Virus record (IMG/VR): IMGVR_UViG_3300018416_000087
Span: 1-27,892 of that record
Strand: one strand, 5' to 3'
Length of the DNA stretch: 27,892 nucleotides
DNA from: a virus
The position numbers were made by a program, and so were the translations under genes. The notes under the pieces were generated by a model. That model was not told where the DNA came from and ran no database searches. It was given only the letters and a program-made list of their open reading frames with translations. Below are positions 2,891-27,586 of this stretch, one piece after another (within the stretch, counting starts at the first letter, position 1; each line of letters starts with the position of its first letter).

Positions 2891-2907
2891 ACCGACAGTA
2901 TAGCCGA

Positions 2908-3138: not shown

Positions 3139-3150
3139 ATTAATAAGGGT

Positions 3151-3177: not shown

Positions 3178-3226
3178 GAGCCATTTGTTTACCTTCTTAC
3201 GGAGAAAGAGTGCAACTGCATATCTA

Positions 3227-3488: not shown

Positions 3489-3524
3489 ATTGCCCCCATA
3501 TTCTGTTCTTAAATTATACTGCAT

Positions 3525-3695
3525 CTAGTGTGTCCCCGCTCTTTTATATACCTTATCGTATAGTTCATCCCACCTGGCTTTTGCAGTTTTAGGATCCAGG
3601 TCTTTCTCGGGAAAGTATTGTATCTCCCCATTTTTGTTTTTTGTATAATTTACAACGGACCCGTCCTTTAAAGTTAGTTTAAATTTTTTTGTCAC
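3525..3695 (-). CDS. Small hypothetical protein, 56 aa, GTG start
   Basis: The GTG at 3695 (reading VTKKFKLTLKDGSVVNY) is chosen because GGAG lies seven bases upstream. The longer version starting at 3749 would overlap the preceding gene by 71 bases. The product begins as a small basic beta-type domain and ends in a charged helix (DPKTAKARWDELYDKVYKRA). Family not recognised. It overlaps the upstream gene by 17 bases. Confidence 0.6.
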   Translation of the reverse strand: MTKKFKLTLKDGSVVNYTKNKNGEIQYFPEKDLDPKTAKARWDELYDKVYKRAGTH

Positions 3696-3900
3696 TTTCA
3701 CACTCCAATATATCTTGATGTATTTCTCGTCTGACAAGAACCTTAACATCTTTATCTAATTTAGTTCTGACTTTTATATCCGATACTTTCGGCTTCCAAA
3801 GTTTCCAATTGTTCGCTTCATGTACAACCGCATCTTGATAACCGTACTCGACAGGTTCCGTATGATGTTCGGTAGTGATGTAGAAACTATTCAAAATCAT
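3679..3900 (-). CDS. Small hypothetical protein, 73 aa
   Basis: ATG 3900 (MILNSFYITTEHHTEPVEYG) is preferred over 3951, since the extra 17 residues of the longer form overlap the previous gene and look unlike protein. The sequence has His/Trp/Tyr-rich segments (EHHTEPVEYGYQDAVVHE, NNWKLWKPK) and a basic second half (VRTKLDKDVKVLVRREIHQD). There is no membrane segment and no recognised domain. It is sandwiched by short overlaps in a coupled minus-strand operon. Confidence 0.6.
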   Translation of the reverse strand: MILNSFYITTEHHTEPVEYGYQDAVVHEANNWKLWKPKVSDIKVRTKLDKDVKVLVRREIHQDILECESDKKI

Positions 3901-4090
3901 CCCGTAACATTTCTTCCGCCATATCCGCGCGGCCTGACAAGGTTTCGTCAATCGTAGTCTCCAGGTCGTCTATCTCTTGTACGATAGATGAAGCGGCCCA
4001 CTCGGGCGCGATACGTTTAACAATAGATCGCACGTTATCCAATATCTCTTGATAACCTACGTATTCTTTTACTTTGTATGAACTACTCAT
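3887..4090 (-). CDS. Small acidic helical protein, 67 aa
   Basis: ATG 4090 overlaps the stop of the upstream gene (ATGAGTAG) and is taken as the start; an in-frame ATG three codons earlier is possible. The product is mainly helical (YQEILDNVRSIVKRIA, SSIVQEIDDLETTIDE) with an acidic C-terminal stretch (ADMAEEMLRDDFE). No domain recognised. Tight overlaps on both sides indicate co-translation with its neighbours. Confidence 0.62.
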   Translation of the reverse strand: MSSSYKVKEYVGYQEILDNVRSIVKRIAPEWAASSIVQEIDDLETTIDETLSGRADMAEEMLRDDFE

Positions 4091-4316
4091 CTGACTCAAG
4101 CTCGTCGTCGCGTTTTACGTCTCTAATCGTATCAAGTACGACACCCAATCCTATTATTTCGTTTGGCGCGCAATCAAGAGCCATTTGAGTAAACAATCTC
4201 AACCCCGCGTGTGCAATCATCGGCGTACCCAAAGGTTCGGCTTTTTCTATTGCATCCAACAGTTCAAGATTGAAATCGTTATATAGTTGTTCTTCGTTTA
4301 TTTTTGGCTTTGCCAT
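4083..4316 (-). CDS. Small hypothetical protein, 77 aa
   Basis: The start has a clear SD (AGGAGAAAGAT then ATG). It is the first gene of the minus-strand operon that runs from 4316 down to the terminase region. It has an N-terminal charged helix, a hydrophobic centre (GTPMIAHAGLRLFTQMALD) too polar for a membrane span, a hydrophobic helix IIGLGVVLDTI, and an acidic tail ending ELESDE. No family recognised. A good promoter candidate lies just upstream. Confidence 0.65.
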   Translation of the reverse strand: MAKPKINEEQLYNDFNLELLDAIEKAEPLGTPMIAHAGLRLFTQMALDCAPNEIIGLGVVLDTIRDVKRDDELESDE

Positions 4317-4410
4317 ATCTTTCTCCTAAGTAATTTACAGATAGTATATATATTTTCTTTACGCGTGCAAGTTTTTTGTTTATGATTGTATAAATTAATT
4401 GGAGAAAAAA
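4317..4410. promoter_or_regulatory. Divergent promoter region
   Basis: A 94-base gap between divergent genes. For the minus strand, TTGCAC (4370-4365) and TATACT (4348-4343) are separated by 16 bases, a good sigma70-like promoter about 27 bases upstream of the 4316 start codon. For the plus strand, TATAAA at 4389-4394 is a plausible -10 box in front of gene 4411, with only a weak -35 (GTGCAA, 18-base spacer) that would coincide with the minus -35. The shared -35 position implies the two promoters may compete. Confidence 0.5.
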
Positions 4411-4620
4411 ATGAGTGAACTAAATAATCTAATCAACGAAACCCTGTCTGAAGAAGCAAAGGACCAAATCGGTATAGTCCAACCAGACCATATAAATGAA
4501 CTGTTTGTAGACCTACAATCTATCAATAGAATGTCTGAGGCTATGATGTATATACTGCATCATCATCCCCACGTATTTGAATTGGCTTACAAGGAGGTCT
4601 TAAAAGATGACAATAGGTAA
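4411..4620 (+). CDS. Small hypothetical protein, 69 aa
   Basis: ATG 4411 follows TTGGAGAAAAAA; the upstream TTG at 4399 is the SD itself and is rejected. The product is helical (ELNNLINETLSEEAKDQIG, QSINRMSEAMMYILHHHP) with a His-rich HHHPHVFEL segment. No domain recognised. It is the first gene of the plus-strand recombination block and overlaps the next start by 14 bases, where a strong AAGGAGG lies inside its coding sequence. Confidence 0.62.
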   Translation: MSELNNLINETLSEEAKDQIGIVQPDHINELFVDLQSINRMSEAMMYILHHHPHVFELAYKEVLKDDNR

Positions 4621-5011
4621 ACCCATTCGTTGCTACCCTCTAAAGAAGAAGGACGGTAAGTTTGTGTACTTGCCTTACGACAAGACTGAGTTTGATATTA
4701 CGTTTGTCGGCGACGATACAGAAATCAAAGCGGTCCAGGAGTATTGGCAAGCCATACAAAAACCCGAATACAACCCACGCGAAACGGTCAGTCAAAACCT
4801 TATGCGTATCAAAAACGATATAGGCTATTGGCCTGAACCTTTTTACAACGACAACGTGGTGCAGACCACCCTGTTAGAATACGAAGAAGATTCACCCTTT
4901 ATAGATATGTTCAAGAAGCAAGCCGCTTTTGAGAAACGACAAAAGGAAGAAGATACTAAACGAGTTTACAGACCTAAGACTTGGGATGTGGATGATGACA
5001 TACCTTTTTAA
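4607..5011 (+). CDS. Hypothetical protein with SSB-type C-terminal tip, 134 aa
   Basis: Preceded by a very strong SD (AAGGAGG). The body is unrecognised: a beta-type start (GKPIRCYPLKKKDGKFVYLP), an internal amphipathic stretch and a charged linker (FEKRQKEEDTKRVYRP). The last nine residues, WDVDDDIPF, nearly match the end of E. coli SSB (MDFDDDIPF), the tip that recruits RecQ, PriA, ExoI and other repair proteins. It lies directly upstream of recombination nucleases. It may be a divergent ssDNA-binding protein or an adaptor that mimics the host SSB tip; which one cannot be told from sequence. Confidence 0.6.
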   Translation: MTIGKPIRCYPLKKKDGKFVYLPYDKTEFDITFVGDDTEIKAVQEYWQAIQKPEYNPRETVSQNLMRIKNDIGYWPEPFYNDNVVQTTLLEYEEDSPFIDMFKKQAAFEKRQKEEDTKRVYRPKTWDVDDDIPF

Positions 5012-5023
5012 TTGGAGGATGAA

Positions 5024-5266
5024 ATGAAAAGAACTGAAAAATTTGTAGATGAAATATTGGAAAAAAATAAACAAAAATTGCAAAAAGTAGCTTACGGAGC
5101 TTTGCATGCTTATTTATTTAAAAAAATAAACCATGAATTAGTAGAACCCTCCTCATACCGACAAGACCTTTGCACACCTTTAATACAAGATATAAGTGAA
5201 AAGATTGATTTGTTTTTAGTAGCAGAGGGTTATAACAATGGAGAAAAAAATGAAAGCAATACCTGA
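5024..5266 (+). CDS. Small hypothetical protein, 80 aa
   Basis: ATG 5024 follows GGAGG with five bases spacing; the TTG at 5012 lies within the SD and is rejected. The product is basic at the N-terminus (MKRTEKFVDEILEKNKQKLQK) and helical throughout, with a Tyr/His/Phe patch (YGALHAYLFKKINHEL). No recognised domain. It overlaps the RecE-like nuclease gene by 17 bases and may be an accessory protein to it, which is only positional inference. Confidence 0.6.
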   Translation: MKRTEKFVDEILEKNKQKLQKVAYGALHAYLFKKINHELVEPSSYRQDLCTPLIQDISEKIDLFLVAEGYNNGEKNESNT

Positions 5267-6092
5267 ACTAGAACAATATGAACCAACCCAGAAAGGCGAC
5301 GCGCTTGTTGTCTTTGATATACCCAACGAACTCTACCACTCTGACGTGGGTAAGAGTTCCAGCTTCTTTCGTAAGTTTGGTGAAAGCCAAATACACGCGC
5401 TTGAAGTAGAACAAGAAACGACCAAAGCAATGGAGTTCGGTACTGCCGCTCACTATATGCTAGTGGAGGGCGACGAAGCCTTTCATAATAATGTGGGCGT
5501 AATCTTTGGATCCCCGTATACGAAAGCCAATAAAGAAATGAAACAAGAGTTTATTGACAGAGGCTTAGTCGTTATCAACGAATCCGATATGCACGCGATC
5601 AATCAAATGGATGCCTATATGATTGAAGAAGGCAAGATGTATCTGGACGGCGACGGCAAGATACCCGAGGCATCTTTCTATTGGTTTGAAGACGACGTCT
5701 TGTGTAAGTGCAGACCAGACATCATCTGTAAACCGCAAGGCCCCCATCAAGATTACGAGATAGTCGTGGTTGATTACAAGACCACCTATTCTTGCAGTCC
5801 TGAGTCGTTCAAAGAATCTGTATTGAAATACGGATACGCAGAACAAGCCGCCTGGTACAGAAGGGGTATGGAGGCCGCGGGATACAAAGTCAAAGAGTTT
5901 GTCTTTGTCGCGCAAGAAAAGAAACAACCCTACGCCAGTAAAGTCTTCAAGATAACCAACGAACAAATGGACGTGGCTTGGCTGACTATGGAGAAACATC
6001 TACACGCTTATATGCGACATCTGAAAGGTGAAAGGCCAACCGTATACAACAGCCCTAATGTTGTTACACTTGATTTAGATGGCCAAGATTAA
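5250..6092 (+). CDS. RecE-like PD-(D/E)XK exonuclease (DUF3799 type), 280 aa
   Basis: Predicted 5'-3' double-strand DNA exonuclease that would generate single strands for phage annealing recombination. Visible motifs in order: GTAAHYMLVEG (His68), Glu140, RPDII (Asp157), VVDYKTT (Asp175-x-Lys177) and YAEQAAWY (Gln199), the usual RecE/lambda-exonuclease-like arrangement. About 280 aa is the normal length of the phage domain. ATG 5250 is preferred over 5238 because GGAG lies directly before it. It overlaps the next nuclease gene by 14 bases and pairs functionally with the Sak4-like ATPase at 7196-7909. Confidence 0.88.
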   Translation: MKAIPELEQYEPTQKGDALVVFDIPNELYHSDVGKSSSFFRKFGESQIHALEVEQETTKAMEFGTAAHYMLVEGDEAFHNNVGVIFGSPYTKANKEMKQEFIDRGLVVINESDMHAINQMDAYMIEEGKMYLDGDGKIPEASFYWFEDDVLCKCRPDIICKPQGPHQDYEIVVVDYKTTYSCSPESFKESVLKYGYAEQAAWYRRGMEAAGYKVKEFVFVAQEKKQPYASKVFKITNEQMDVAWLTMEKHLHAYMRHLKGERPTVYNSPNVVTLDLDGQD

Positions 6093-6489
6093 TTCCAGAA
6101 ACAAAGGCGCTCAGTTTGAGAGAGACGTTGTACGTATACTCAATAACTTCTTTATAGAGGAAGGTATAGACTTTCAAACTAAGCGCAACCTTGATCAATA
6201 TCAACAACGAGATCTTTGCGATCTGCAAATACCCAACCACGCGATAGAGTGTAAGTTCTACAAAGAAGGCGATTGGGTAAAGCCTGAGTGGTGGCGACAA
6301 GTATGTGCAAGTTGCGAAGATAACATCCCCGTACTTATCTACAAATACAACCGCAAACCGATACGAGTTTGCATACCTCTGTACGCGATCAATCCTGATT
6401 GGGTACGCGACAACCAAGCTATAGCCGTTATGACTGTGGACGATTGGTTATCTATCTTAAAAACGAATTGGGATTTATACGGTAAATAA
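6079..6489 (+). CDS. Holliday-junction-resolvase-like nuclease, 136 aa
   Basis: A small PD-(D/E)XK-fold nuclease. N-terminal NKGAQFERDVVRIL holds the first conserved Glu (E14). RDLCDLQIP supplies the Asp (D48), and AIECKFYKEGDW supplies the E-x-K pair (E57, K59). The layout and length match archaeal Hjc-like and phage resolvases that cut branched DNA before packaging. It starts within the end of the RecE-like gene and is followed within ten bases by a strong terminator, so it ends this operon. VRR-NUC-like nuclease is the alternative label. Confidence 0.78.
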   Translation: MAKINSRNKGAQFERDVVRILNNFFIEEGIDFQTKRNLDQYQQRDLCDLQIPNHAIECKFYKEGDWVKPEWWRQVCASCEDNIPVLIYKYNRKPIRVCIPLYAINPDWVRDNQAIAVMTVDDWLSILKTNWDLYGK

Positions 6490-6517
6490 AATAAAGGGGT
6501 CGATTGACCCCTTTATT
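6490..6517. terminator. Bidirectional intrinsic terminator
   Basis: Perfect 12-bp stem: arms AATAAAGGGGTC (6490-6501) and GACCCCTTTATT (6506-6517) around the loop GATT. The GC-rich core is flanked by A-rich and T-rich ends, so it can stop transcription from either side. It closes the plus-strand operon at 6489 and can also stop the minus-strand operon ending at 6684. Confidence 0.88.
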
Positions 6518-6683
6518 CTTCAGTAAGTAATTCGCCTTATGTTGATTAAAACCCGTATCTACGACTCTTCATTACTTGGGATTACGCCACCTGTCGCCGC
6601 AGCTTTTTATTGTAGATACCCAAATATGTATTGTAAGTGCTAGGTTGAGCTTGGCTCTAACGACTCCTAGCGTAGCCGAACGA
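6518..6683. other. Non-coding spacer with inverted repeats
   Basis: 166 bases between the terminator and the end of the DUF669 gene. No ORF with an SD was found; the best is a 34-codon plus-strand ORF at 6539-6643, judged unconvincing. It contains the inverted pair GTATCTAC (6555-6562) and GTAGATAC (6612-6619), and a second weaker pairing near 6651-6681. It could hold a structured leader or small RNA, or be decayed coding sequence. No tRNA fold was recognised. Confidence 0.3.
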
Positions 6684-7199
6684 TTACAGTGAGGGCTTGT
6701 TTAGGGGAGCTGCCTCACCTGGAGAAGCATCGTTTGATTCATCCATGCTTGGTGGTAAGTCTACCGCCTTTGGAGCAGACTCAGTCTTCAACGGCAAGAA
6801 CGATTTGATTTCGTTGCTTGGACCGTATTCACCAGTCTGATCTTCAACAATGACGACTCTCGCTTCAAAAGTTTTGTTTTGAAACTCCCAAGCAGTCTTG
6901 GGAACTTCTTTGAAACCAACGGCTTTTGCTAAACGAGCAAAGTCGTTATTAGCGTAGCCTCTGATTTCTTCTTGCTTTTGTTTATCGTCATTTACATACC
7001 AGAGGTTAAAGTTTTTTCTCAACCTCCACCCAGCGTAGTTATCACCCGTTACTTCGGCTTCTAACTTCAAGTAGTCGTTACCAGCCGCAGACGTTGTCTT
7101 TTCGCAAGACAATATTACGACAGGGTAATCACCCTCTGGAATTGCAGAGCTACTCTCTGCGGCATCCAAGTCTATATCCAATCCTTCAAAGTCACTCAT
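6684..7199 (-). CDS. DUF669 protein, putative ssDNA-binding, 171 aa
   Basis: Begins MSDFEGLDIDLDAAESS and continues with PEGDYPVVILSCEKTTSAAG and DYLKLEAEV, the recognisable DUF669 pattern (G-x-Y-x-V-x-I, then N-D/S-Y-L-x-L-x-x-x-V). DUF669 proteins sit beside phage recombinases and are thought to act as ssDNA-binding partners. The centre RKNFNLWYVNDDKQKQEEIRGYA and the acidic, Pro/Ser-rich tail fit this role. The ATG overlaps the stop of the Sak4-like gene (ATGA) with SD GGAGG, so the two are co-translated. Confidence 0.85.
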   Translation of the reverse strand: MSDFEGLDIDLDAAESSSAIPEGDYPVVILSCEKTTSAAGNDYLKLEAEVTGDNYAGWRLRKNFNLWYVNDDKQKQEEIRGYANNDFARLAKAVGFKEVPKTAWEFQNKTFEARVVIVEDQTGEYGPSNEIKSFLPLKTESAPKAVDLPPSMDESNDASPGEAAPLNKPSL

Positions 7200-7909
7200 G
7201 CTGCACCTCCTGCAAATCCGAGTTTGTTTATTACACTAGCCAGATCGGGTGACTCAAACCCGTCTAACTTACCTGAACGATCCTTGGCTATATAGTTCTG
7301 ACCAATTCTCGTTTGCAACCATCTTGTAGTGACGGTCTTACCTTCTTCATTTTCTTCGTCAAACGTACGAAGAACCAATACTTCATCAAAGAAGTAAGGT
7401 ATCTGCGTAGGAAGTTTGGCGCCAACCATCATCGGTTGGTAATGATAGGCACCTGTCTGCTCGTCACGTTCTCTGCTTTGTTTAGCAATGAATATAACGT
7501 GGACAGGTAAATCCCTGAACCTACGCATCGTTTTAATCATCACTTCGATGACTTCTCCGTACGCACGTCTAGGATCTTTGCTTTTGGCCTTTTCTTGCGA
7601 AAGCAAGATTTCAGCCATTTCCGTAACACTATCAAGACAAACGGTATCGTATTGTAGTGTTCCGTTCTCAAGTAGTTGAGCTATCTCTTCTATTTCAGAA
7701 GCTTCCTTAACCTCGATTGCATCAAGATCAGGGGCATCCTTAATAGAGAGAAGACCACTCTCCATACTAACGACTAATGTTTTACCAGGAGCCGTTTGAC
7801 AAAGAGTTGTTTTACCCGCACCACTTTCGCCATACACTAAAAGTTTGGCGCCTTGCGACTCAACTAAATCGCTAGGTGACTTGATGCGGTCCTGAATACT
7901 AATGTTCAT
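7196..7909 (-). CDS. Sak4-like RecA-fold ATPase (AAA_24), 237 aa
   Basis: Compact RecA-core ATPase: Walker A GESGAGKT at residues 27-34, Walker B YDTVCLDS with Asp93, then a sensor-like segment VHVIFIAKQSRERDEQTGAY. Length and neighbours (DUF669, RecE-like exonuclease) match the phage Sak4/AAA_24 family, single-strand-annealing proteins that act in phage recombination and replication. SD GGAG precedes the ATG at 7909. It is the first gene of a short minus-strand operon facing the HTH/primase operon. Confidence 0.85.
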   Translation of the reverse strand: MNISIQDRIKSPSDLVESQGAKLLVYGESGAGKTTLCQTAPGKTLVVSMESGLLSIKDAPDLDAIEVKEASEIEEIAQLLENGTLQYDTVCLDSVTEMAEILLSQEKAKSKDPRRAYGEVIEVMIKTMRRFRDLPVHVIFIAKQSRERDEQTGAYHYQPMMVGAKLPTQIPYFFDEVLVLRTFDEENEEGKTVTTRWLQTRIGQNYIAKDRSGKLDGFESPDLASVINKLGFAGGAA

Positions 7910-7982
7910 ATTTTTCTCCAGTTGTTAATGTAAATGTTTTCAGTTACAATCACACGAAAACATAATTACACATATAGTATAC
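7910..7982. promoter_or_regulatory. Divergent intergenic region; possible leaderless start
   Basis: The 73 bases separate the Sak4-like operon from the HTH/primase operon and should carry both promoters. A plus-strand -10-like TATAGT (7973-7978) lies only four bases before the ATG at 7983, and no SD is visible, so transcription may begin at or next to the start codon (leaderless mRNA). No convincing -35 box is seen at standard spacing, so an activator or phage-specific factor is possible. The minus-strand promoter is not clear. Confidence 0.4.
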
Positions 7983-8342
7983 ATGAACAAAGCAAAAATC
8001 AATAAGAATCAATGGAAGATTAATTACTTCCATAGGCAACAACAATTGGTAGAGAGAGAACTGATGGATTTATACAGTCAGGGACTTGAACCAGCATATA
8101 AGGAGCGTGAAGTGGAACGAGTGAGTTTAAGTAAATACATAGAGTTTGTAGGGATCGAAGCTGCTGCAAAGTTATTCGATTGTTCTACACATACAGTCAA
8201 GGCTTGGAGGTATGGCAACAGACAGCCATCAACGGATCAGGCCAAAAAGATTATTGTGGCAACTGAAGGTAAGTTAGATTTCTTTTCCATCTATGGTCCT
8301 ATAGATAGCGAAAAAGAAGATACAAGTGAAACGGTTGAGTAG
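7983..8342 (+). CDS. Helix-turn-helix DNA-binding protein, 119 aa
   Basis: An N-terminal basic, Gln-rich helix (KINKNQWKINYFHRQQQ) is followed by a Cro/YdaS-like HTH around residues 48-93: SKYIEFVGIEAAAKLFDCST then HTVKAWRYGNRQPS. The tail is acidic (DSEKEDTSETVE). It likely binds DNA as a transcriptional regulator or an origin/primase-loading factor, because it is coupled to the primase gene (TAGTG overlap). It sits at the divergent junction with the recombination operon, a natural place for a switch regulator. Confidence 0.75.
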   Translation: MNKAKINKNQWKINYFHRQQQLVERELMDLYSQGLEPAYKEREVERVSLSKYIEFVGIEAAAKLFDCSTHTVKAWRYGNRQPSTDQAKKIIVATEGKLDFFSIYGPIDSEKEDTSETVE

Positions 8343-19428: not shown

Positions 19429-19758
19429 TCAAACCTTTATACTTGTCGCTCCGTTGTTTCTGACAGTTACAGAACCCAGTTCTGATTGCAGTTCAAACCC
19501 CTGTGGATTCTTAGGAGTATGAAGCTGTATCCATTTGTTTCCAGTATAAACCTGTAAAACTCCAATAGATGTGTTCCATACTACATCACCTTCGTTAAAT
19601 TTTAAAGAACCAAGCTCAGTATCGTTGAATTGTGGTGTAGAGTTTGGGTCAAACGCACCAAGGTTCAACTCCAGTATTCTGGTTAATCTGTTAAAGTTTT
19701 CTTTGGTTACAGAAGGTTGTAGTTCTGTAGGTAAACGAGTTTCTAATAATTTGCTCAT
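19429..19758 (-). CDS. Small virion-associated hypothetical protein, 109 aa
   Basis: A helical N-terminal third (KENFNRLTRILELNLGAFD) is followed by a beta-rich second half (FNEGDVVWNTSIGVLQVYTG then KWIQLHTP) and a short Val/Thr/Asn tail (SVTVRNNGATSIKV). The G-D-V-V-W-N-x-x-x-G-x-L-Q-V-Y-x-G pattern resembles small fibre/tail-attached domains of marine phages. The start overlaps the stop of the large tail-type gene (ATGA), suggesting stoichiometric synthesis. Function unproven. Confidence 0.6.
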   Translation of the reverse strand: MSKLLETRLPTELQPSVTKENFNRLTRILELNLGAFDPNSTPQFNDTELGSLKFNEGDVVWNTSIGVLQVYTGNKWIQLHTPKNPQGFELQSELGSVTVRNNGATSIKV

Positions 19759-21620
19759 CTTCTACCATCAGTCTTAACATCCATTCTAGTATCCCCTAAA
19801 CGCCATCCAATAGACAAATTACCATCATTAGTAGCGTCGTCGTTTGATTCAAATCGTACTACAGCCTGTCTGCCTCTTGCCCTTAAATTTACTTTTTGAG
19901 TGGTTGAAGATACTTCAGAAGTAGAATCGGTAGTCAAAGAATCGCCTGGAAAGTTTCTTACTTTAGTTACTACGTTGACTGTACCAGAATTATCATCTTG
20001 TAAAAATTTGATATCTGGTATTAAGGCAGATATTTGCGTAAACCGATCACCATCCCCTATATCAAAATCGGCTGATTCCACAAACACGTTAGTCATCGCA
20101 CTTCCGTCGTTGTCAAAACCTATTTCATGTTGATACAAGTAACCGCCGTTAGTGGCTTGTGGAAATGATTCAACACCTGAGTCTAACCATACGGTTCTAG
20201 TCAATTGACCGTAGTACCAAACTTGTTGTTGAGTGTTGTATATAACATATCTGTCTATTTCGTCGCTTGATGAAGAAGGGTAAAACCAACCCACTTCATT
20301 ATGTTCACTGTTGGTAAATGCCTGTATTTTATAGGCTTGACCTGTATTAAGATCGCCAAATACATAATTATGAACGCTACAAGGCAGTTCCTGCACCGTA
20401 CCGTTATATAAATAGAAATTACCATATCCCATAAAGAATACGCCGCCCGAAGAAGTGATAGCTGCTTTTGGACCTATAAGACCTGATGCTTCGTTAATAA
20501 GATTCAAAGCAAAGGTTAAAGGTGCGCCTACAAACTGCATAGAATATACAGAGGTGTCTGTAAAGATTACAACTTCTTGTCTGGACTTAACGCCACCTAC
20601 AATACTAGAACCAGAAGACAATCTTACCGATCCAGCGGTATTGGTAATTTGCGGTTCAAAATCAAGTTCGTTTTCTTGATCGGAGAAAGCAACCAACATC
20701 GGATCTAACACTCCAGACCTCGCGCTACCTTCAATTGGATCAGCGCCTAAAACGATAAGGTGTCTGTCAACCTCTGAGGTTATTACTTGTAAACCTACGG
20801 TTGGTACAAGGTTGGCTCCAGCTATATCGGATAATTGGACAGCTCTGGTGCCAGTTCCGTTGTTTTCAAGCCAACGATAAATACCGCCACCTCTAGTATT
20901 CATAATAAGGTTTTCACCAAAGTTATCATGTGTCCAAAGTCTAAGCTGATTGTTACCACCTAATGAAGTTGCTGAACCCCAACCGCTTGCCCCCCACGTT
21001 CCAACACTCCACCCTGTTGATTGCACGTAAACATCAAGTCCCGTATTGATTTGGTAAGCTGCATCAGTAGCTGAACCGCCGTTTCCTGAATCACTTGCAT
21101 TAGCTGTAACCGTAGAGCCAGATGTATCTTTTGCGGTAATCGTATACGTGTTGGTGCCTGTCACTAGATCTATTTGATATTCTTGATTTAGTACAGCAGC
21201 TGTTACGTTACCTCCTAAAGAGACGGCATCTGAAAATGTAACAAAATCACCGTTTACAGCACCGTGACTGGCATCCGTAACCGTTACGGTAGAAGACCCA
21301 TCAGTGGCCGCAAAAGTAGCTGCGTTTGTTGTTGTTTTGCGAATTGGGGTGACGTCAGCAAAAGCTGTACCGTCTTTTATGTAATACTTTAAATGTGTTC
21401 CAATTCCTAAATATTTATTACCACTTAAAGAAATCCAATTGTGTAAGGCTCTAGCAGTTCCTAGGTATGTGCTGTCAGTAAGTTTTTGCCAACCTCCAAA
21501 TTTTTCTACTCTACCTTCTCTAAATCTAATTAAATTACAATCAAACCAACCGTTTTCGGCACTATACGCTGTTCCTTCTCTGTATATACCTGGTCTGAAC
21601 TGTACTTTTGAATATGGCAT
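19755..21620 (-). CDS. Large tail/hub-type structural protein, 621 aa
   Basis: Starts MPYSKVQFRPGIYREGTAYS then GWFDCNLIRFREGRVEKFGGW, a beginning I associate with a conserved structural protein of marine podophages. It reads as a beta-propeller-like or gp10-type tail-stabilisation protein (N-terminal part about 1-120, NKYLGIGTHLKYYI). Residues 90-190 carry an inserted Ig-like Thr/Ser/Asp-rich domain (FAATDGSSTVTVTDASHGAV). The rest is beta-rich with YVIYNTQQQVWYYG. It is probably a tail-hub or packaged-DNA-stabilising protein; no enzymatic motif. SD GGGAGAAAA precedes the ATG, directly after the lysozyme stop. Confidence 0.7.
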   Translation of the reverse strand: MPYSKVQFRPGIYREGTAYSAENGWFDCNLIRFREGRVEKFGGWQKLTDSTYLGTARALHNWISLSGNKYLGIGTHLKYYIKDGTAFADVTPIRKTTTNAATFAATDGSSTVTVTDASHGAVNGDFVTFSDAVSLGGNVTAAVLNQEYQIDLVTGTNTYTITAKDTSGSTVTANASDSGNGGSATDAAYQINTGLDVYVQSTGWSVGTWGASGWGSATSLGGNNQLRLWTHDNFGENLIMNTRGGGIYRWLENNGTGTRAVQLSDIAGANLVPTVGLQVITSEVDRHLIVLGADPIEGSARSGVLDPMLVAFSDQENELDFEPQITNTAGSVRLSSGSSIVGGVKSRQEVVIFTDTSVYSMQFVGAPLTFALNLINEASGLIGPKAAITSSGGVFFMGYGNFYLYNGTVQELPCSVHNYVFGDLNTGQAYKIQAFTNSEHNEVGWFYPSSSSDEIDRYVIYNTQQQVWYYGQLTRTVWLDSGVESFPQATNGGYLYQHEIGFDNDGSAMTNVFVESADFDIGDGDRFTQISALIPDIKFLQDDNSGTVNVVTKVRNFPGDSLTTDSTSEVSSTTQKVNLRARGRQAVVRFESNDDATNDGNLSIGWRLGDTRMDVKTDGRR

Positions 21621-22064
21621 CTAGATTTTCTCCCACTCTTTCCCTTCAAACAAATTAGCCTCTGCTTGTCTTCTTTTAACCAAACCCGCTAAAACCTCAC
21701 CACCTGCTTTATTCCAGCGTTTTATCTGTTCTGGTACGCCGCCATAATCGCCCTCATTAAGAATACGTAACAAAGTAGATTCTTTTAGATTGGTTGGTCC
21801 TAAGTTGTATACCCAACAAACTAATGCATCAAACTGACATTGATCTAACGGCACTTCTACCATATCGTTGATATAACCCTCGTACTCAGGCATCTCTTCT
21901 TTGAGTAAATGTTCGGCTTCGTTTTGGTTGATTTGATCGCCATCTTTTACATCTTTTGTATGTCCGTAGCCAATTGTCCAAACGCCTACGGAATCTTGAT
22001 ACGCTTCTAAACGACATCCCTCGTAGTTTTTAATTAACGATATACCTTCTTCAGATATGTTCAT
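21621..22064 (-). CDS. Endolysin, GH24 (T4-type) lysozyme, 147 aa
   Basis: ATG 22064 (MNISEEGISLIKNYEGCRLE) is chosen: AAGGA lies eight bases upstream, and the longer ORF from 22097 overlaps the holin. The catalytic triad is intact with T4-lysozyme spacing: Glu15 in YEGCRLEAY, Asp24 and Thr30 in DSVGVWTIGYGHT. A conserved WVYNLGPTNLKESTLL and a C-terminal GGEVLAGLVKRRQAEANLF complete the fold. It cleaves the peptidoglycan glycan backbone. No signal peptide is present, so it depends on the holin encoded just upstream. Confidence 0.96.
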   Translation of the reverse strand: MNISEEGISLIKNYEGCRLEAYQDSVGVWTIGYGHTKDVKDGDQINQNEAEHLLKEEMPEYEGYINDMVEVPLDQCQFDALVCWVYNLGPTNLKESTLLRILNEGDYGGVPEQIKRWNKAGGEVLAGLVKRRQAEANLFEGKEWEKI

Positions 22065-22065
22065 A

Positions 22066-22542
22066 TTAATCGTCCTTGGTTGTGTTAGATGCACCAAAGT
22101 AAAAACTAATAATAGCTGATGCTAAACCACCAAGATATCCGAGTACCAAATTGACCAAAGCCTCTGAGTTCTGTTCGGGGGGCTGGATAGTTATGAGAAA
22201 GATATATCCTAAGAAACCACCTAATGTAGCAATACCTATAATTCTGGCTGTCCAATCTTTAGAAAAAGTTGATCTAGCGTTTTGTGTATCTTGTACTTCC
22301 AGTTTAAATACATCCACCTCTAGTTCTTTCATCTTGACCTCAAACTCAGCTTCAGCTTTTTTTAGCTCAAGCATTTGTTCAGGTGTAGCATTGTCTATGG
22401 CTTTTTGTATTTCTTTAGGTTCGTTCTTACAACCCAATACATCTGCAATCATGTTTGCAGCCATACCTCCCATCGGACCTCCTAGAGCTGTACCTAAGGT
22501 TGGTGCTACTGATCCAACTAAGTTTTTAAGTAGTGCTTTCAT
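22066..22542 (-). CDS. 3TM-type holin, 158 aa
   Basis: Matches the Holin_3TM layout: an N-terminal Gly/Ala-rich hydrophobic helix (residues 11-37, SVAPTLGTALGGPMGGMAAN), a long charged coiled linker (EQMLELKKAEAEFEVKMKEL), then two membrane helices at about 98-119 (IIGIATLGGFLGYIFLITI) and 127-150 (LVNLVLGYLGGLASAIISFY), and a short acidic tail. It permeabilises the inner membrane to release the lysozyme. The start overlaps the stop of the cyclase gene (ATGA) with SD GGAGG, so holin translation is coupled to the signalling gene. Confidence 0.87.
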   Translation of the reverse strand: MKALLKNLVGSVAPTLGTALGGPMGGMAANMIADVLGCKNEPKEIQKAIDNATPEQMLELKKAEAEFEVKMKELEVDVFKLEVQDTQNARSTFSKDWTARIIGIATLGGFLGYIFLITIQPPEQNSEALVNLVLGYLGGLASAIISFYFGASNTTKDD

Positions 22543-24284
22543 ATATCCTCCAAAGTAAATATTTTTAAAGGCTCACTAATACCTTTAACTTCTATTGGTT
22601 GTAACGATTTTAGCTCAAAATTACAATTTTTTGCAGTCTCCTCTGCAATTATTAAATCTTTACCTACAGTCTTGCAGCTAGATTCACACCTAGCAGCGAT
22701 ATTAACAGCACTTCCTATAGCGCTATAGTCAAATCTTGTGTTACTACCCATGTTTCCTATAACTGCTTCTCCTGTATTTATACCAATTCCTATTGATACG
22801 CCTACATCCGATTCGGCAAATTGTTTTTGTATTTCTTTCGCACATTCTACGGCTGCTTGTTCGTGATTTTGCAAATCTATAGGAGCGTTAAATATGGCCA
22901 TCATTGCATCACCTATATATTTATCTACCATACCCTCGTACTTTTTAACTGCGTCTGATTGAATAGTGAGAGCTTGATTCATAATTTGAGTCACTTGTTC
23001 GGGATCCATGTGTTCGCTCATCGCAGTAAAACCACGTACATCAGTAAATAAAAAGGTACATCTTTTCTTTTCTCCACCTAGTTTTAACAGACTGGGATCA
23101 GATTGCAAAGCTTTGACTTGTCTTGGATCCAGATAATGTTCAAATTGTTTTTTAATCTGCTGTCGCAACTTATATTGTTCTCTGAACTTTATATAATAAG
23201 ATACGCTACCAACAATAAATTGACTTATAAGGGTCCAAGTCACGTCAATCAAAACACCATTTTTTATGGTGTAAATGCCGCCAATCGCAACTACAACCAA
23301 ACTTGTAGATATACCTATCAAACCTACAGTCATACTTAGTTTTTGTGTTAGATACCAAGCAAGCAAAATAAATATGGTGAATATTAAAAGCTCTGACGCT
23401 AAATGCCACTCGGGTATTTTTGGAGAATTTGGCAATAAAATTGATTCAGCTAAAGCAGCTTGTAAATGATGAGGATTCATCAGACCGTTGGGTGTAGGAA
23501 CCTGCGGTAAAATGCCCCCTCCACTTGTGCCAATAATTACATATTTATCTTGAGCTAGTGAGATATCACTCAAATTTATAATAGGAGTATCTACGTAGCT
23601 TACCCATTTACGCATCAATGGATCTACAGATATAGGTGGTAGTGATGGTACTCTAATTTCACCATCAGTCATATTTATAATGTATGTATCTTGACCTGTA
23701 AGTTGTTTGAGTATTTCTATTGCAAAGCTTGGCGCAAATCCATCAACAGTACGCAACAGTAACGGTATTTGTCTGACCAAACCATCTACATCTGTAGGTG
23801 CTGATGCGACGCCTTGAGATGCGTTATTCTTGAGTATCTCTATATTTTCTATAACGCCTCTGGCTTGATAACCACCTCCCGTATCCTCACCCAGAATAAC
23901 TGTACCTACCGTTGGCGGATAACTTTCGTTATCGTTTTCAAACATCGCCAATACAGAAGGGCCGTAGCTGAGAGCTTCAGAAAACGCTACATCTCCACCC
24001 ATTCTATCTGGCTGCGGAAACGTAAATGCCCAGGCTTGTCCAAAACTGCCAGCCTCCAAAAGATTTATTTGTATTTCAGCCAAACGCTGACGCGGCAAAG
24101 GCCAACCTCCCTCTTTTTCTATATCTTCTTCGTTAATATCAAGAATTACAAAATTACCTGTAGGCTCTTGTTTTGCAACAAAAGTGTCAAAAGTTTTTAA
24201 TTTAAGTATCTCAAGAGGCGTAAATTGTAAAGCTAGTGGCGTCATCAAAAGCGCAAAAAGTATTGGTAATGTATATTTTTTCAT
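22539..24284 (-). CDS. CHASE2-domain class III adenylate cyclase, 581 aa
   Basis: Membrane cyclase predicted to make cAMP. TM1 at residues 4-22, a periplasmic CHASE2 sensor domain about 23-290 (KLKTFDTFV, FVILDINEEDIEKEGGWPLP), three further TM helices (296-314, 318-338, 344-365), a signalling helix with YLDPRQVKAL, then the cytoplasmic cyclase (about 403-580). Catalytic residues are all present: metal Asp415 (FTDVRGFT) and Asp459 (DKYIGDAMMAIF), adenine-specifying Lys455 and Asp519 (DYSAIG), and transition-state Asn528 and Arg532 (VNIAAR). The Lys/Asp pair favours ATP over GTP. The start overlaps the FecR stop (TGATG); it runs into the holin gene by ATGA. A cyclase in a phage late operon is very unusual. 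Confidence 0.96.
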   Translation of the reverse strand: MKKYTLPILFALLMTPLALQFTPLEILKLKTFDTFVAKQEPTGNFVILDINEEDIEKEGGWPLPRQRLAEIQINLLEAGSFGQAWAFTFPQPDRMGGDVAFSEALSYGPSVLAMFENDNESYPPTVGTVILGEDTGGGYQARGVIENIEILKNNASQGVASAPTDVDGLVRQIPLLLRTVDGFAPSFAIEILKQLTGQDTYIINMTDGEIRVPSLPPISVDPLMRKWVSYVDTPIINLSDISLAQDKYVIIGTSGGGILPQVPTPNGLMNPHHLQAALAESILLPNSPKIPEWHLASELLIFTIFILLAWYLTQKLSMTVGLIGISTSLVVVAIGGIYTIKNGVLIDVTWTLISQFIVGSVSYYIKFREQYKLRQQIKKQFEHYLDPRQVKALQSDPSLLKLGGEKKRCTFLFTDVRGFTAMSEHMDPEQVTQIMNQALTIQSDAVKKYEGMVDKYIGDAMMAIFNAPIDLQNHEQAAVECAKEIQKQFAESDVGVSIGIGINTGEAVIGNMGSNTRFDYSAIGSAVNIAARCESSCKTVGKDLIIAEETAKNCNFELKSLQPIEVKGISEPLKIFTLEDI

Positions 24285-25402
24285 CAGCTACCTTGTTTTA
24301 TGGTAATTGTATTAGAAGATCCACCATTTACTTTAACTACATTTTCTACGCCATTTTGAAAAAGAATTAGCGTATAGGCACTTGATCCGTCCAAATCCAA
24401 TCTAAAAGTATCGCCTACCGATCTACGTACACTTACAACTTGACCAGTAATTATAGTTGTAATTTGTGTATCTTTGTCTTGACCTATATCCGTACCAGCA
24501 ATTGTAATACCTGTAGCAAGTTTACTTAATTGGTCTTCTTCTTCGTCAACAGCTAAAGCGTCAATAATATTTAAAAGGTCTTCAAGAAAGTTTACATCTA
24601 AGTAATTGATGTCTAATTCTGTAAATTCCAAATCTGCTTCATTATCTAAGAAATCTTCTGCTAAAAAATCTATATCTAAATCTGAAAAATCTAAATAATC
24701 CGCTGTACCAACTTGTTGTTGTTCTTCGGATAGATTTTGTTTTTCATCAGGTGGATTAACAATTAGCATGTTGTCTATAAATTCCAAAGATATATCCAAG
24801 ATTACAGGTTTTGACGGAGCTTGATTGTAAGTCATCGCAGTAGTCGCTTGGTATGCTTGATTCAATATGACTTGGCCCATCGCTGTTTCAACCACTATCT
24901 CCCCACTAGGATTGCCGTTTTCATCGGGTAAAAGAATAACAAGAGAACTGCCAGTTTCAGGAGTGGTCGTTATTGTAAAATCCGTACCCCTTACATACAC
25001 GTCAGCGCTTGGGGTTTTTATACGTATGGCTTTTTTGTTGTTGAATTTACCTGTAACAAATCTAGCCGTTCCTGAAGCAAAACGTAAAGCCATTTCACTC
25101 TTTGCTGGGTTAGGATCGTAAATGTAAGAGTTGATTACTAACTTGCTATGATCCATAACTCGCACAACAGTATCATCTTCAAACCTTATAGCAACTCTAC
25201 CTGCCTCAGTCTTTACGTTGTCAAGTTGCTGTATAGGAAAAGCTAACTCAGCGCCATAGGCTTTATCTCTGTAAACCTGCGCGTTGCCTTTTAGTTCGCT
25301 AATACTTCCAATATTAACAGCTTGTGCTTCCGCCCTGATCGTTTTGAATAACGCAAACGGTGCTAGTAGTAGAACCAGTGCTAATAATCTTGAGCCAGTC
25401 AT
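24284..25402 (-). CDS. FecR-domain periplasmic protein, 372 aa
   Basis: Signal peptide (LLALVLLLAPFALFKTIRAE, cleavage near AEA-QA), then a FecR domain at about residues 55-147 (LDNVKTEAGRVAIRFEDDTV, FASGTARFVTGKF, TPSADVYVRGTDF). A second beta region follows, then a very acidic stretch at 234-290 built on Leu-Asp repeats (LDFSDLDIDFLAEDFLDNEA), and a beta-rich tail ending VNGGSSNTITIKQGS. FecR-type proteins are known, from memory, to neighbour CHASE2 cyclases in bacteria, where they probably act as partner or input to the sensor. The first ATG after an in-frame TAG is 25402; it lies inside the curlin-like gene and has no SD. Confidence 0.9.
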   Translation of the reverse strand: MTGSRLLALVLLLAPFALFKTIRAEAQAVNIGSISELKGNAQVYRDKAYGAELAFPIQQLDNVKTEAGRVAIRFEDDTVVRVMDHSKLVINSYIYDPNPAKSEMALRFASGTARFVTGKFNNKKAIRIKTPSADVYVRGTDFTITTTPETGSSLVILLPDENGNPSGEIVVETAMGQVILNQAYQATTAMTYNQAPSKPVILDISLEFIDNMLIVNPPDEKQNLSEEQQQVGTADYLDFSDLDIDFLAEDFLDNEADLEFTELDINYLDVNFLEDLLNIIDALAVDEEEDQLSKLATGITIAGTDIGQDKDTQITTIITGQVVSVRRSVGDTFRLDLDGSSAYTLILFQNGVENVVKVNGGSSNTITIKQGS

Positions 25403-26027
25403 TATCTAATGTACTTTGTTGTTGAATATTAAAGGTTCTATTGCTACCTGTGTGGTCTAACCAAAAGTAGCCTCCTGCGTACCCATCTCCATCATACGTC
25501 ACAGTATTATCAGAACCGTCTATATCCATATAGTTTGTAGCACCATCTATATCTATGGCAGATGTAATGCTGTTACTTGAACCATTTATAATCCAATCAA
25601 GATCAAGAGTGCTTGCCAAAGCAACGGTAGCGTGATTCAAAGTGAAGGTATTGCTATTGCCTGTGACGTCAACATTAATATTAGATGAGTCTGCACCGTA
25701 GGTGTTAGTCTTATCAGTGTTCATGTTGAAAGTGTTGCTGTTACCGTCAAATTCAAAAAAGCCAGTATATGAATCTGCGGTAATGTCACCTAAAAATTTG
25801 TTACTGTCTCCTATTTGGTTAATATCAAGAGTCATAGCTGTACCGTCTAAGTTAAGAGCAGTCATTGTTCCTGCTACGGCATCTATACCACCAATGATGT
25901 TCCCAGAACCAAGTTGTTCTAAATCCATATTTGAATTTGAAGATCCTGAACTTTGATCAACAAATATCTCATTGTCTGCTGCAAAAAGGGGGGCAGACAT
26001 AATCATAATAATTAAAAGTCTTTTCAT
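25314..26027 (-). CDS. Curlin-like secreted repeat protein, 237 aa
   Basis: Signal peptide MKRLLIIMIMSAPLFA (cut before ADN), then about seven degenerate repeats of a beta-G-x-S-N-beta unit: LEQLGSGN (36-43), DINQIGDSN (68-76), FDGNSNTF (93-100), VTGNSNTF (121-128), INGSSNSI (147-154), DGSDNTV (169-175), HTGSNRTFNIQQQ (192-204). This resembles curlin X-Q-x-G-x-x-N repeats, with Gln often replaced. No charged core; two Cys near the C-terminus (225 and 237). It is the expected cargo of the CsgG pore encoded immediately upstream (ATGA overlap, SD GGAGG). It may form an amyloid or beta-solenoid fibre. Its 3' end overlaps the FecR gene by 89 bases. Confidence 0.75.
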   Translation of the reverse strand: MKRLLIIMIMSAPLFAADNEIFVDQSSGSSNSNMDLEQLGSGNIIGGIDAVAGTMTALNLDGTAMTLDINQIGDSNKFLGDITADSYTGFFEFDGNSNTFNMNTDKTNTYGADSSNINVDVTGNSNTFTLNHATVALASTLDLDWIINGSSNSITSAIDIDGATNYMDIDGSDNTVTYDGDGYAGGYFWLDHTGSNRTFNIQQQSTLDNDWLKIISTGSTTSTVCVIQNDQGGSTSC

Positions 26028-26824
26028 TCTTTTAACCTCCAGTATTTATTTTCTAAGCCTTGTTTGATTGTTTCTGCAACGGCTGTCTCGATAGCCATCT
26101 GCAAAGCAATACTGGTCGGCTCATTTTTTACCGCGCCCCCTTCTAATTCTACCAATTCTGTATTGTCTGATACAAATCTAAATACGTCGTTATCTAACGA
26201 TGCAGACAATACAGTTTTAGTAACCAATACTTCAAAAAGCACTCTACCAGTGCTTACTGAAACTGTTCTAAGGCTCACTGTCAGTATGTCTTCTCTAAAC
26301 TGACGTGACATGCCAATACCTAAATTCCTGGCTCCCACACCTCCAGAGCTTATATTTGCTTGATAAGACAAAACACCACCAGTCATTATCATGTCCCCAA
26401 ATTTGAGCGGCATAAGTTTTTGATCTTCTTCAAATGTCTCCCTTGTTGATCTGATTAACTGCCTTTCTTTAGTAACTGCATCTAGTGATACCCTTTCTAC
26501 TACATCAAAGAAATTGGAGTGTTTTAGTGCGCGTATAAGGTAAGCGTGAGGTGCTTGAGTAATCGCTGTACTAAATGTGGCGTATTTTGAATTTGATCGG
26601 CGTTGACCTGTTTGATCTTTAAAACCGTCAGGATATACAGCTATGACTGGCTTTCTAACAGGTTCACCAATATCTGATAAATCTGTATATAAAGACTCTA
26701 CAGTTGCTTTTTGTACGTTTTCAAAAGGTGGTAAATTATTCGCAAGGGGATCAATCATTAGCGTACAGCTAGAAAGTGAAACCGCCAATGGGAACAATAA
26801 CCTCTGTAACATTGCCGTCTTCAT
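26024..26824 (-). CDS. csgG: CsgG-family outer-membrane curli secretion lipoprotein, 266 aa
   Basis: Strong CsgG match: DQTGQ...FSTAITQAPHAYLI then SNFFDVVERVSLDAV, LIRSTRE, GGVLSYQANISSGGVGARNLGIG, LRTVSVSTGRVL, TKTVLS, FRFV, NEPTSIALQMAIETAV. A lipobox precedes Cys20 (LSSC). In curli-producing bacteria it forms the nonameric outer-membrane pore. Against E. coli CsgG, the constriction loop is one residue longer by hand alignment and the C-terminus stops soon after YWRL. The start overlaps csgF by 56 bases; ATG 26812 would give a signal peptide closer to the E. coli one (Cys at 16). Neither start has a clear SD, so coupling to csgF is likely. Confidence 0.96.
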   Translation of the reverse strand: MKTAMLQRLLFPLAVSLSSCTLMIDPLANNLPPFENVQKATVESLYTDLSDIGEPVRKPVIAVYPDGFKDQTGQRRSNSKYATFSTAITQAPHAYLIRALKHSNFFDVVERVSLDAVTKERQLIRSTRETFEEDQKLMPLKFGDMIMTGGVLSYQANISSGGVGARNLGIGMSRQFREDILTVSLRTVSVSTGRVLFEVLVTKTVLSASLDNDVFRFVSDNTELVELEGGAVKNEPTSIALQMAIETAVAETIKQGLENKYWRLKE

Positions 26825-27236
26825 CAGTAATAGTAACTCTTACTTCCTCGTCTGTAATTTCATATTCTATAGTGTTGCCATCCAGTTCCATAGATCCACT
26901 TTTACTTGTTTCTTCACCAAATAAAGATGCTTCTATTTGTCTTGCTAGGTTTGCATATATTCTGCTCGTCAGGTTTCTCATAAACCTTGCTTCAACAGTA
27001 TTGGTCTTTTCTCTTTCTAGTTCGTCACGTAAGGCTTCTATTTCATCTTTGATAGCTTGTTTACGATTAGTTTCTTGATTTTCAATAGTAAGATAATGAC
27101 TAGACGTACCAACTCCACTAAACGAAGGGTTTTTAAATTCATGCACCATTTCGTCAGCTTGTATTTGTTGAATTGCAACTACCAATAAAATGATTGTGGT
27201 GCCTATTATAAAAAATATACTATCGTTTAAATTCAT
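26769..27236 (-). CDS. csgF: CsgF-like curli assembly factor, 155 aa
   Basis: Hydrophobic N-terminus (FFIIGTTIILLVVAIQQIQA) acting as signal peptide, with cleavage predicted before DEM. It continues VHEFKNPSFSGVG, the counterpart of the CsgF segment (FQFRNPNFGG) that inserts into the CsgG pore. A helical middle (EIEALRDELEREKTN then FMRNLTSRIYANLARQI) follows, and a beta C-terminus (GNTIEYEITDEEVRVTITDE) resembling the CsgF tail that reads Y-I-V-D-I then L-N-V-T-D. It caps CsgG and links the pore to surface fibre nucleation. It lies immediately before csgG, an order known in curli operons. Confidence 0.87.
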   Translation of the reverse strand: MNLNDSIFFIIGTTIILLVVAIQQIQADEMVHEFKNPSFSGVGTSSHYLTIENQETNRKQAIKDEIEALRDELEREKTNTVEARFMRNLTSRIYANLARQIEASLFGEETSKSGSMELDGNTIEYEITDEEVRVTITDEDGNVTEVIVPIGGFTF

Positions 27237-27586
27237 CAGTCTTTTCGTTGGTCTTCTCTATCAGCCTTTGCAATTTTATTGCTGTCTATTAACTGCGGTA
27301 CACCTAATATAGTTTTGATAAGTGTATCTTGACGTATGATCTCGTTATCTAAACTTCTGACGCGATCAATAAGGGCGACCAAAATCCCGTGTTGTGAGTC
27401 TAGTTTTGTACCTAGTCTTTGTTCCATTTGTTCTATTTGATCAGCAACCTTATCGTCAAGCACATCAACTTTAGTTTCCATACCGTCAATAATACGGTTA
27501 ATAAGTTTCCAAATAAAGAACCCCAGACCTAACGCAGCAGCTATTGGAAAGCCTACTTCATTAATAAATTGAACTGCTTGGTCCAT
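27236..27586 (-). CDS. Membrane-anchored coiled-coil phage protein, 116 aa
   Basis: A short N-terminus, one membrane helix (about residues 10-30, VGFPIAAALGLGFFIWKLIN), then a long coiled coil (METKVDVLDDKVADQIEQME and onward) ending in a charged tail. The pattern (FINEVGFPIAAALG...) occurs in small marine phage proteins often listed as putative holin-like. Here a 3TM holin already exists, so a role as an accessory pinholin, lysis regulator or membrane partner of the curli module is possible. The start overlaps the upstream gene's stop (TAATG) and its own stop overlaps csgF (TGATG). Confidence 0.65.
   Translation of the reverse strand: MDQAVQFINEVGFPIAAALGLGFFIWKLINRIIDGMETKVDVLDDKVADQIEQMEQRLGTKLDSQHGILVALIDRVRSLDNEIIRQDTLIKTILGVPQLIDSNKIAKADREDQRKD

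Follow-up and report, generated by a model that had tools for sequence, protein, structure and literature searches.

Within a 27,892-nucleotide stretch of viral DNA (IMG/VR record IMGVR_UViG_3300018416_000087, positions 1 to 27,892; hereafter the window), we analysed a gene that encodes a receptor-type nucleotide cyclase and stands as the last gene of a curli secretion cassette. We think it about evenly balanced whether its product, a predicted active class III adenylate cyclase of the Lys / Ser-Thr type, serves as the optional sensory end of a phage curli (type VIII secretion) cassette. The gene joins an intact sensor to an output enzyme, is at times missing in a near relative and appears to have been naturally recombined, which supplies natural variants for probing the role of the cyclase.

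The cyclase gene is a single unbroken frame of 581 codons on the minus strand, with its ATG at 24284 and a TGA ending at 22539. A preliminary description of this DNA had placed an open reading frame (ORF) at exactly these bounds; the frame is intact there, and the strand, which that description had left unstated, is minus. A plus-strand reading of 22539-24284 was ruled out by its many stops. The protein and its parts are as follows.

22539..24284, minus strand: CHASE2, three transmembrane (TM) helices, coupling helix and class III cyclase, 581 amino acids (PF05226, 7.8e-28; PF00211, 4.7e-20; phrog_35576, 3.2e-111; AlphaFold2 model, mean pLDDT 87.5, pTM 0.70)
23415..24284, minus strand: sensor half, comprising TM1 and the periplasmic CHASE2 domain, residues 1-290 (from Pfam and the model; its history conflicts with that of the cyclase half)
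23112..23177, minus strand: coupling (signalling) helix, residues 370-391 (from pair identities and steps in nucleotide identity)
22551..23069, minus strand: cyclase catalytic domain, Guanylate_cyc (5.3e-23)

Pfam placed CHASE2 at residues 17-308 and Guanylate_cyc at residues 406-578, both above the cut-off. The cyclase domain scored 72.4 bits against a curated cut-off of 21.9, and the two metal-binding Asp and the transition-state Asn and Arg are present, as expected of a class III nucleotide cyclase. These Pfam scores, together with the purifying selection described below, ruled out a chance or decayed ORF. The top PHROG family, phrog_35576, covers residues 24-579 and carries no named function. 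The AlphaFold2 model, built from 53 sequences, contains helices at residues 2-19, 294-315, 318-341 and 349-381, the last of which continues into the cyclase stalk; a hydropathy scan detected the first three TM helices and missed the fourth. The modelled layout fits that of CHASE2 receptors, with TM1, an extracytoplasmic CHASE2 domain, three further TM helices and a cytoplasmic output domain. It bears out the four-TM topology proposed earlier, with CHASE2 probably outside and the cyclase inside. The 50 PDB matches listed for the model are class III cyclases, among them 6fht (an artificial phytochrome cyclase), Cya2 (2w01), CyaC (1wc1) and CyaB (3r5g), and the best match in a viral model library is an uncultured Caudovirales protein annotated COG4252, with a TM-score of 0.77 over the query.

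Scanning IMG/VR for the cyclase gave at least 599 pattern matches and at least 595 encoding relatives, from which 80 loci were kept without dereplication (loci are cited below by L numbers). We aligned 92 rows, likewise not dereplicated: the window, its own locus (L001), the 80 viral loci, 8 frames from 7 genome-collection loci, and the phages HTVC008M and Melnitz. The window carries D415 and D459 for the metals, K455, N528 and R532. D415, K455 and D459 are kept in all 91 rows that cover them, R532 in 90/90, and N528 and D519 each in 89/90. Position 521 holds Thr in 48 rows, Ser in 41, Asp in 1 and a gap in 2. The odd row is Melnitz, which has Ser at 519, Asp at 521 and Ser at 528 within a gap-free stretch; as aligned, this row shows that 521 is the position holding Asp in other cyclases and that 519 and 521 are distinct. 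The second residue that specifies substrate in Ma1120 is D157, 7 residues ahead of the Asn position (164) and 11 ahead of R168, according to the part of the source available (PMC4215837). The same spacing applied to the window leads to S521, whose aligned counterpart in both CyaC and CyaB is Thr. On the strength of this spacing and the Melnitz row, we rejected D519 as the adenine-selecting residue. The catalytic set named in the preliminary description therefore holds for D415, D459, K455, N528 and R532, and its base-selecting Asp gives way to S521.

The pair K455 and S521 is compatible with an adenylate cyclase. Taking Lys at the first base-selecting position and Asp or Thr/Ser at the second as the adenylate-type signature, we found Lys in 91/91 covering rows and Thr or Ser at the second position in 89/90. 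Lys is the telling residue; Ser or Thr at the second position is by itself compatible with a guanylate cyclase as well. Cya2 of Synechocystis, a CHASE2-regulated guanylate cyclase (2w01, 6fht) and one of the closest relatives of the catalytic domain with a solved structure, differs from the window protein in having Glu488 in place of Lys455, and passages of one study describe the use of E488K to confer adenylate cyclase activity on Cya2 (PMC5995499). The window protein is thus predicted to be an adenylate cyclase, by a slightly different residue pair than the one first named.

Ratios of nonsynonymous to synonymous divergence (dN/dS) between the window and L004, which is 95% identical, were 0.068 for CHASE2, 0.059 for the TM part and 0.017 for the cyclase. 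Across the five pairs with computable synonymous divergence (dS; L004, L005, L012, L015 and L017), they ranged from 0.067 to 0.214 for CHASE2 and from 0.017 to 0.081 for the cyclase domain. Because of this strong purifying selection, and because D415, K455 and D459 are conserved throughout, the enzyme is probably active, as had been suggested before; the ratios are evidence of function under recent selection.

Five genes of the curli cassette lie upstream of the cyclase and were absent from the preliminary description. The cassette runs in the order CC116, csgF, csgG, curlin-like gene, FecR gene and cyclase, and frames overlap at every border from CC116 through the holin-like gene that follows the cyclase.

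24284..25402, minus strand: FecR-domain protein, 372 amino acids, with a signal-peptide-like N-terminus by eye (PF04773, 4.4e-12; phrog_37870, 1.5e-60); its stop overlaps the cyclase start (TGATG)
25314..26027, minus strand: curlin-like repeat protein, 237 amino acids, with a signal-peptide-like N-terminus by eye (phmmer 2e-14 to an HTVC008M gene annotated CsgB)
26024..26824, minus strand: CsgG, the curli outer-membrane secretion pore (PF03783, 3.3e-46)
26769..27236, minus strand: CsgF (PF10614, 2.4e-20)
27236..27586, minus strand: CC116, a 116-amino-acid cassette leader with a TM segment and a coiled coil by eye (phrog_18771, 7.6e-16; weak holin match phrog_4898, 5.8e-4)

This neighbourhood is constant. 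Among the 80 kept loci with enough sequence, the upstream genes were FecR in 57/57, the curlin-like gene in 43/43, CsgG in 33/33, CsgF in 31/31 and CC116 in 24/24, and the full CsgF, CsgG, curlin-like, FecR and cyclase cassette was present in 24/24 relatives with 4.8 kb upstream. A scan with CsgG, in which 80 loci were kept of 114 relatives, gave the same picture wherever there was room: the curlin-like gene in 74/74, FecR in 69/69 and CsgF with CC116 in 52/52. The cyclase was found in just 32 of the 42 CsgG loci with 6 kb of room and was absent in 10, some of which look like near copies of each other. In one of these, L153 (L153:4692-10917 against window 27592-19701), the same cassette and lysis genes are present and the cyclase is cleanly absent. 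Its DNA is 88.1% identical to the window over 3338 columns, to just past the FecR end, and 89.0% identical over 2842 columns from the holin start, with about 70 bases between the FecR and holin genes. The cassette, which tends to adjoin lysis genes, is therefore constant except at its end, where the cyclase is optional, and L153 provides a matched natural variant lacking this gene.

The curlin-like protein (25314-26027) had no curlin match in a Pfam scan; it is homologous to genes annotated CsgB or curlin repeat in HTVC008M and Melnitz. Its model is all-beta (pTM 0.83), and a comparison with the PDB gave no fold match at E<=0.001. CC116 had no Pfam match over the cut-off, a kinase domain included. 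Its homologues precede csgF in HTVC008M and Melnitz, where two stand in tandem in each (L090:2881-3446; L091:3189-3845). Identity of CC116 between phages reaches 99% where the rest of the cassette genes share about 60%.

The cassette, cyclase included, was already published for pelagiphages in 2022 (PMC9599517), and the headline finding of the preliminary description is therefore not new. In the passages available, that study reports the type VIII cassette in HTVC023P-type podoviruses and in myoviruses, with CsgF, CsgG, curlin-like protein, FecR and adenylate cyclase in identical order; a partial version appears in PMC7029224. It differs in having genes labelled 'HK', called short, before csgF, where the window gene lacks a kinase domain. 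CC116 occupies the place of 'HK' and may be the same gene relabelled; the 'HK' label may be mistaken. The main text of PMC9599517 names CHASE2 zero times, and its available passages mention neither the mosaic described below nor the residues. GenBank annotates the cyclase in both HTVC008M and Melnitz, to which the window cyclase is 33.7% and 31.8% identical.

Melnitz (a Methylophilales phage; L091, MZ577097; PMC9004378) carries the same gene set in its GenBank record, including a FecR domain protein and the cyclase. It differs from the window in having Asp at 521 and Ser at 528, and the 17.7 kb retrieved from it carry no holin or endolysin annotation. The text of PMC9004378 uses neither 'FecR' nor 'cyclase'. 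Although its GenBank record lists two curlin-repeat genes, FecR and cyclase, csgA and csgB are said to be missing in the available part of PMC9004378. Of 22 window proteins, 3 matched HTVC023P, 5 DSL-LC04, 3 CRP-901 and 2 023Pt_psg01 (50-kb stretches, window and references both being partial), and the structural protein encoded at 19755-21620 shares 41.7% identity with DSL-LC04 and 33.0% with HTVC023P. Such protein matches are remote and suggest several different hosts. No match was obtained when window positions 1-8000 were searched as DNA against 50,697 phage records. By these comparisons, the window phage is probably a distant relative of the pelagiphage cassette lineages.

Comparing the two halves of the cyclase gene separately revealed a mosaic of sensor and enzyme. 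Among 3160 pairs of the 80 cyclases, which are not dereplicated and whose pairs are not independent, 55 pairs combined cyclase-half identity of 85% or more with CHASE2 identity of 65% or less, 40 combined CHASE2 identity of 75% or more with cyclase-half identity of 55% or less, and 342 reached 75% or more in both halves. The window itself is 59% identical to L012 in CHASE2 and 94% in the cyclase, 58% and 89% to L017, and 84% and 37% to L032. Values of dS for CHASE2 and the cyclase half were 2.20 and 0.39 for L012, 1.85 and 0.64 for L015, and 2.14 and 1.23 for L017, whereas they were even for L004 (0.55 and 0.61) and L005 (0.54 and 0.57); dS was saturated for L007, L023 and L032. We rejected a mere difference in constraint as the source of the mosaic, because synonymous divergence jumps in L012 and L015 and not in L004 or L005, and because the pattern is reversed in L032.

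Only in L012 is the joint sharp: taken per ten codons, nucleotide identity there is 37-47% over residues 311-340, rises to 63-83% over 341-370 and reaches 80-97% from residue 371 onward. For L015 and L017 the rise in identity is gradual, between residues ~341 and 420; against L032, identity falls after 371 from 77% to 40-50%, preceded by a TM region with noisy values. Because nucleotide identity steps in these four relatives, we place the joint in or near the coupling helix QYKLRQQIKKQFEHYLDPRQVK (370-391). This helix is as conserved as the two metal-binding motifs: over 1000 sampled pairs, mean pair identity was 94% (371-380) and 92% (381-390) in the helix, and 94% (411-420) and 92% (451-460) in the motifs.

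For 36 hand-chosen sequences, CHASE2 and cyclase trees rejected each other with log-likelihood differences of 1109 and 774. In a control, the halves of a single domain also rejected each other, by 81-173 units, compared with 307-775 across domains. Because halves within one domain conflict as well, recombination is general rather than confined to one joint, and strongest between sensor and enzyme. Related phages thus appear to have recombined the sensor half and the catalytic half of the cyclase gene. We found no description of this mosaic in the literature searched, of which coverage was partial.

The two halves also differ in how they track their neighbours. Over 37 loci the CHASE2 half followed the divergence of CsgF and CsgG better than the cyclase half did (bootstrap intervals of the difference, 0.08..0.34 and 0.05..0.33), and FecR tracked the CHASE2 half better in a 31-locus set (0.02..0.32). 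An apparent tie of the cyclase half to the holin or lysozyme was not significantly different from that of CHASE2. Over 34 loci with cyclase identity below 90%, median identity to the window was 78% for CC116 (27-99%) and 58-65% for CsgF, CsgG, curlin, FecR and cyclase. These values fit two conserved flanks around an exchanged middle, and linkage alone would give part of the pattern. A tentative account, possible although we lean against it, is that the CHASE2 half has been swapped together with the curli and FecR cargo between conserved flanks, with CC116 on the upstream side and the cyclase domain plus lysis genes on the downstream side. The joint at or near the coupling helix would let any sensor drive any cyclase, and each sensor would be matched to the fibre or FecR of its own cassette. 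If so, nature would have built a set of functional receptor chimeras in these genes, and the virus would carry a secretion system that monitors itself.

As a sensory end of the cassette, the cyclase could work as follows. CsgG, CsgF and the curlin-like protein would become part of the infected cell's envelope, where the FecR-domain protein and the CHASE2 domain would both face the periplasm. CHASE2 would read some envelope state, such as that of FecR, of fibre export or of pore assembly. Its signal would then travel down the TM bundle and along the conserved coupling helix to reach a homodimeric cyclase, which would convert ATP into cyclic AMP (cAMP). The cAMP might then act on a host cAMP receptor or a phage target and so tune late infection. 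We infer each of these elements, namely enzyme activity, the homodimer, FecR or curli sensing, the cAMP target and the timing. If the sensor does match the secreted cargo, the virus would be monitoring its own secretion system through a second messenger.

Cellular systems offer partial parallels. Cellular CHASE2 adenylate cyclases (CyaD1, CyaD2 and CyaK of Sinorhizobium meliloti; those of Campylobacterota) likewise join a CHASE2 sensor to a class III cyclase, with a FecR gene nearby in Campylobacterota. They differ in working with a CRP-type receptor, Clr, and NsrA in S. meliloti, and in the absence of a curli pore from the clusters described in the passages available. Those passages report CHASE2 adenylate cyclases clustered with FecR, phosphodiesterase and TPR genes in Campylobacterota (PMC9239204), a Burkholderia biofilm operon that combines FecR/LysM and a CHASE2 kinase (PMC5192318), and activation of Sinorhizobium CHASE2 adenylate cyclases through the outer-membrane barrel NsrA (PMC13001267). 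In the bacterial class that we sampled, CHASE2 was present in 67/142 genomes. FecR was the commonest neighbour family around 20 hand-picked bacterial CHASE2 genes (6/38 neighbours; cyclic-nucleotide-binding (cNMP-binding) proteins, 2/38); these 38 neighbours were picked after FecR-profile matches in 5/20 loci were known, so the share is biased upward and is an illustration, not a rate.

Several observations weigh against a sensory role. In another 36 CHASE2 loci, whose flanks were short, viral FecR profiles matched only 6, two of which (L096 and L097) look phage-derived. FecR is kept without the cyclase (69/69 CsgG loci with room, compared with 32/42 for the cyclase); it persists in cassettes lacking the cyclase and therefore does not solely serve it. 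A FecR-domain target of Clr in S. meliloti is described as dispensable for signal perception in the part of the source available (PMC5498481). In the 37-locus set with lysozyme, FecR tracked CHASE2 no better than it tracked the cyclase half (-0.12..0.22), and genetic linkage alone predicts a shared history of neighbours. The Ser of Melnitz at the Asn528 position means that the full residue set is not in every relative. A search for a phage-encoded cAMP receptor covered 24 phage records, of which 22 are IMG/VR contigs and may be fragments, and turned up no cNMP-binding domain. Finally, the frequent lysis neighbours of the cyclase (57/67) fit a role in lysis as well as one in sensing.

The chief rival to sensing, which we consider unlikely, is a lysis-timing device, in which the curli pore cassette and the cyclase act with a neighbouring holin, endolysin or spanin to time release. 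The neighbouring genes in the window are as follows.

22066..22542, minus strand: holin-like protein hol158, 158 amino acids (phrog_1544, 6e-28, function unknown; 2e-5 to a DSL-LC04 frame, 'Holin of 3TMs')
21621..22064, minus strand: endolysin (phage lysozyme), 147 amino acids from an ATG at 22064 (PF00959, 9.8e-50, scanned with three extra codons)

The putative holin label comes from the 2e-5 match to the DSL-LC04 frame. The cyclase and holin-like genes share an ATGA overlap, as the preliminary description had noted, and the endolysin gene follows. In the 67 loci that extend 1200 bases or more past the cyclase, we searched the 1.6 kb that follow it, passing labels between loci by phmmer. A window-type holin or lysozyme homologue was present in 45/67; ten loci had a phrog_3427 holin then a phrog_894 endolysin (L041, L042, L059, L060, L064, L067, L068, L070, L073 and L077), and two had Rz-like spanins (L011 and L079). 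A lysis gene of some type thus follows the cyclase in 57/67 relatives. We dropped an earlier view of the lysis link as weak, which had counted window-type homologues alone, since 12 of the 22 other loci carry different lysis families. Three lysis gene types beside one cassette exceed the simple inheritance of one neighbourhood, and a lysis-related CsgGF pore was proposed by the Melnitz authors, who saw no clumping, in the passages available (PMC9004378).

The remaining 10/67 loci show no lysis gene downstream: five have HNH-like or unknown genes (L022, L024, L025, L026 and L069) and five have nuclease, RNA-polymerase or tail genes (L034, L035, L036, L039 and L040). A separate GGAGG precedes the ATG of the holin-like gene by 4 bases, and L153 retains the same holin and endolysin without the cyclase. 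For these two reasons the lysis link appears to belong to the curli cassette rather than to the cyclase; a link specific to the cyclase is unsupported, with 10/42 cassettes lacking it. The earlier proposal that the overlap ties cyclase expression to lysis is accordingly upheld as to adjacency and weakened as to dependence. The cyclase half also correlates with holin or lysozyme in a way not significantly different from CHASE2, and a shared insertion site beside lysis genes would look alike. More broadly, sibling capture (proposed for phage curli genes in PMC7029224), uptake, superinfection defence and lysis have been put forward as functions of the cassette, none agreed, in the passages available (PMC9599517, PMC7029224, PMC9004378).

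It is quite improbable that the phage simply floods the cell with cAMP and retunes host carbon and energy regulation through CRP, with the sensor half incidental. The intact and constrained catalytic site would suit such a constitutive producer, as would the cNMP-binding domains present in 107/142 genomes of the sampled bacterial class, a family that includes non-cAMP regulators. CHASE2 itself is conserved, however, with the dN/dS range given above, and it was matched in the kept relatives save at contig ends, an outcome favoured by ranking on whole-length scores. Available passages on streamlined marine hosts describe little transcriptional control (PMC11102524), and 35/142 genomes of the sampled class had no cNMP-binding match, a class from which the host of this phage may differ.

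Less probable again is a passenger cyclase, the tail of an acquired curli operon and of little use to the phage; its absence from 10/42 cassettes, cleanly so in L153, is what such a gene would leave, but it is under strong purifying selection and its key residues are retained in distant relatives. We find it least probable of all that cAMP or the enzyme acts as a decoy against cyclic-nucleotide anti-phage signalling, for which the sole point is that the predicted product of the family is a cyclic nucleotide, while the constant partners of the gene are curli and FecR genes.

Cassette-like genes also turned up in other records. An unannotated 1,499-base record named as Salmonella phage (OR851715.1), possibly host DNA, encodes a CsgG-like protein 37.5% identical to that of the window. 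Loci from metagenome-assembled genomes (MAGs) of Neomarinimicrobiota, Flavobacteriaceae and Saprospirales (L082, L083, L084 and L087) hold a partial or whole cassette and may be phage contigs binned with bacteria; in L083 the cyclase appears in two frames. In two Rickettsiales MAG contigs (L085 and L086), the cyclase is followed by two CC116-like genes downstream.

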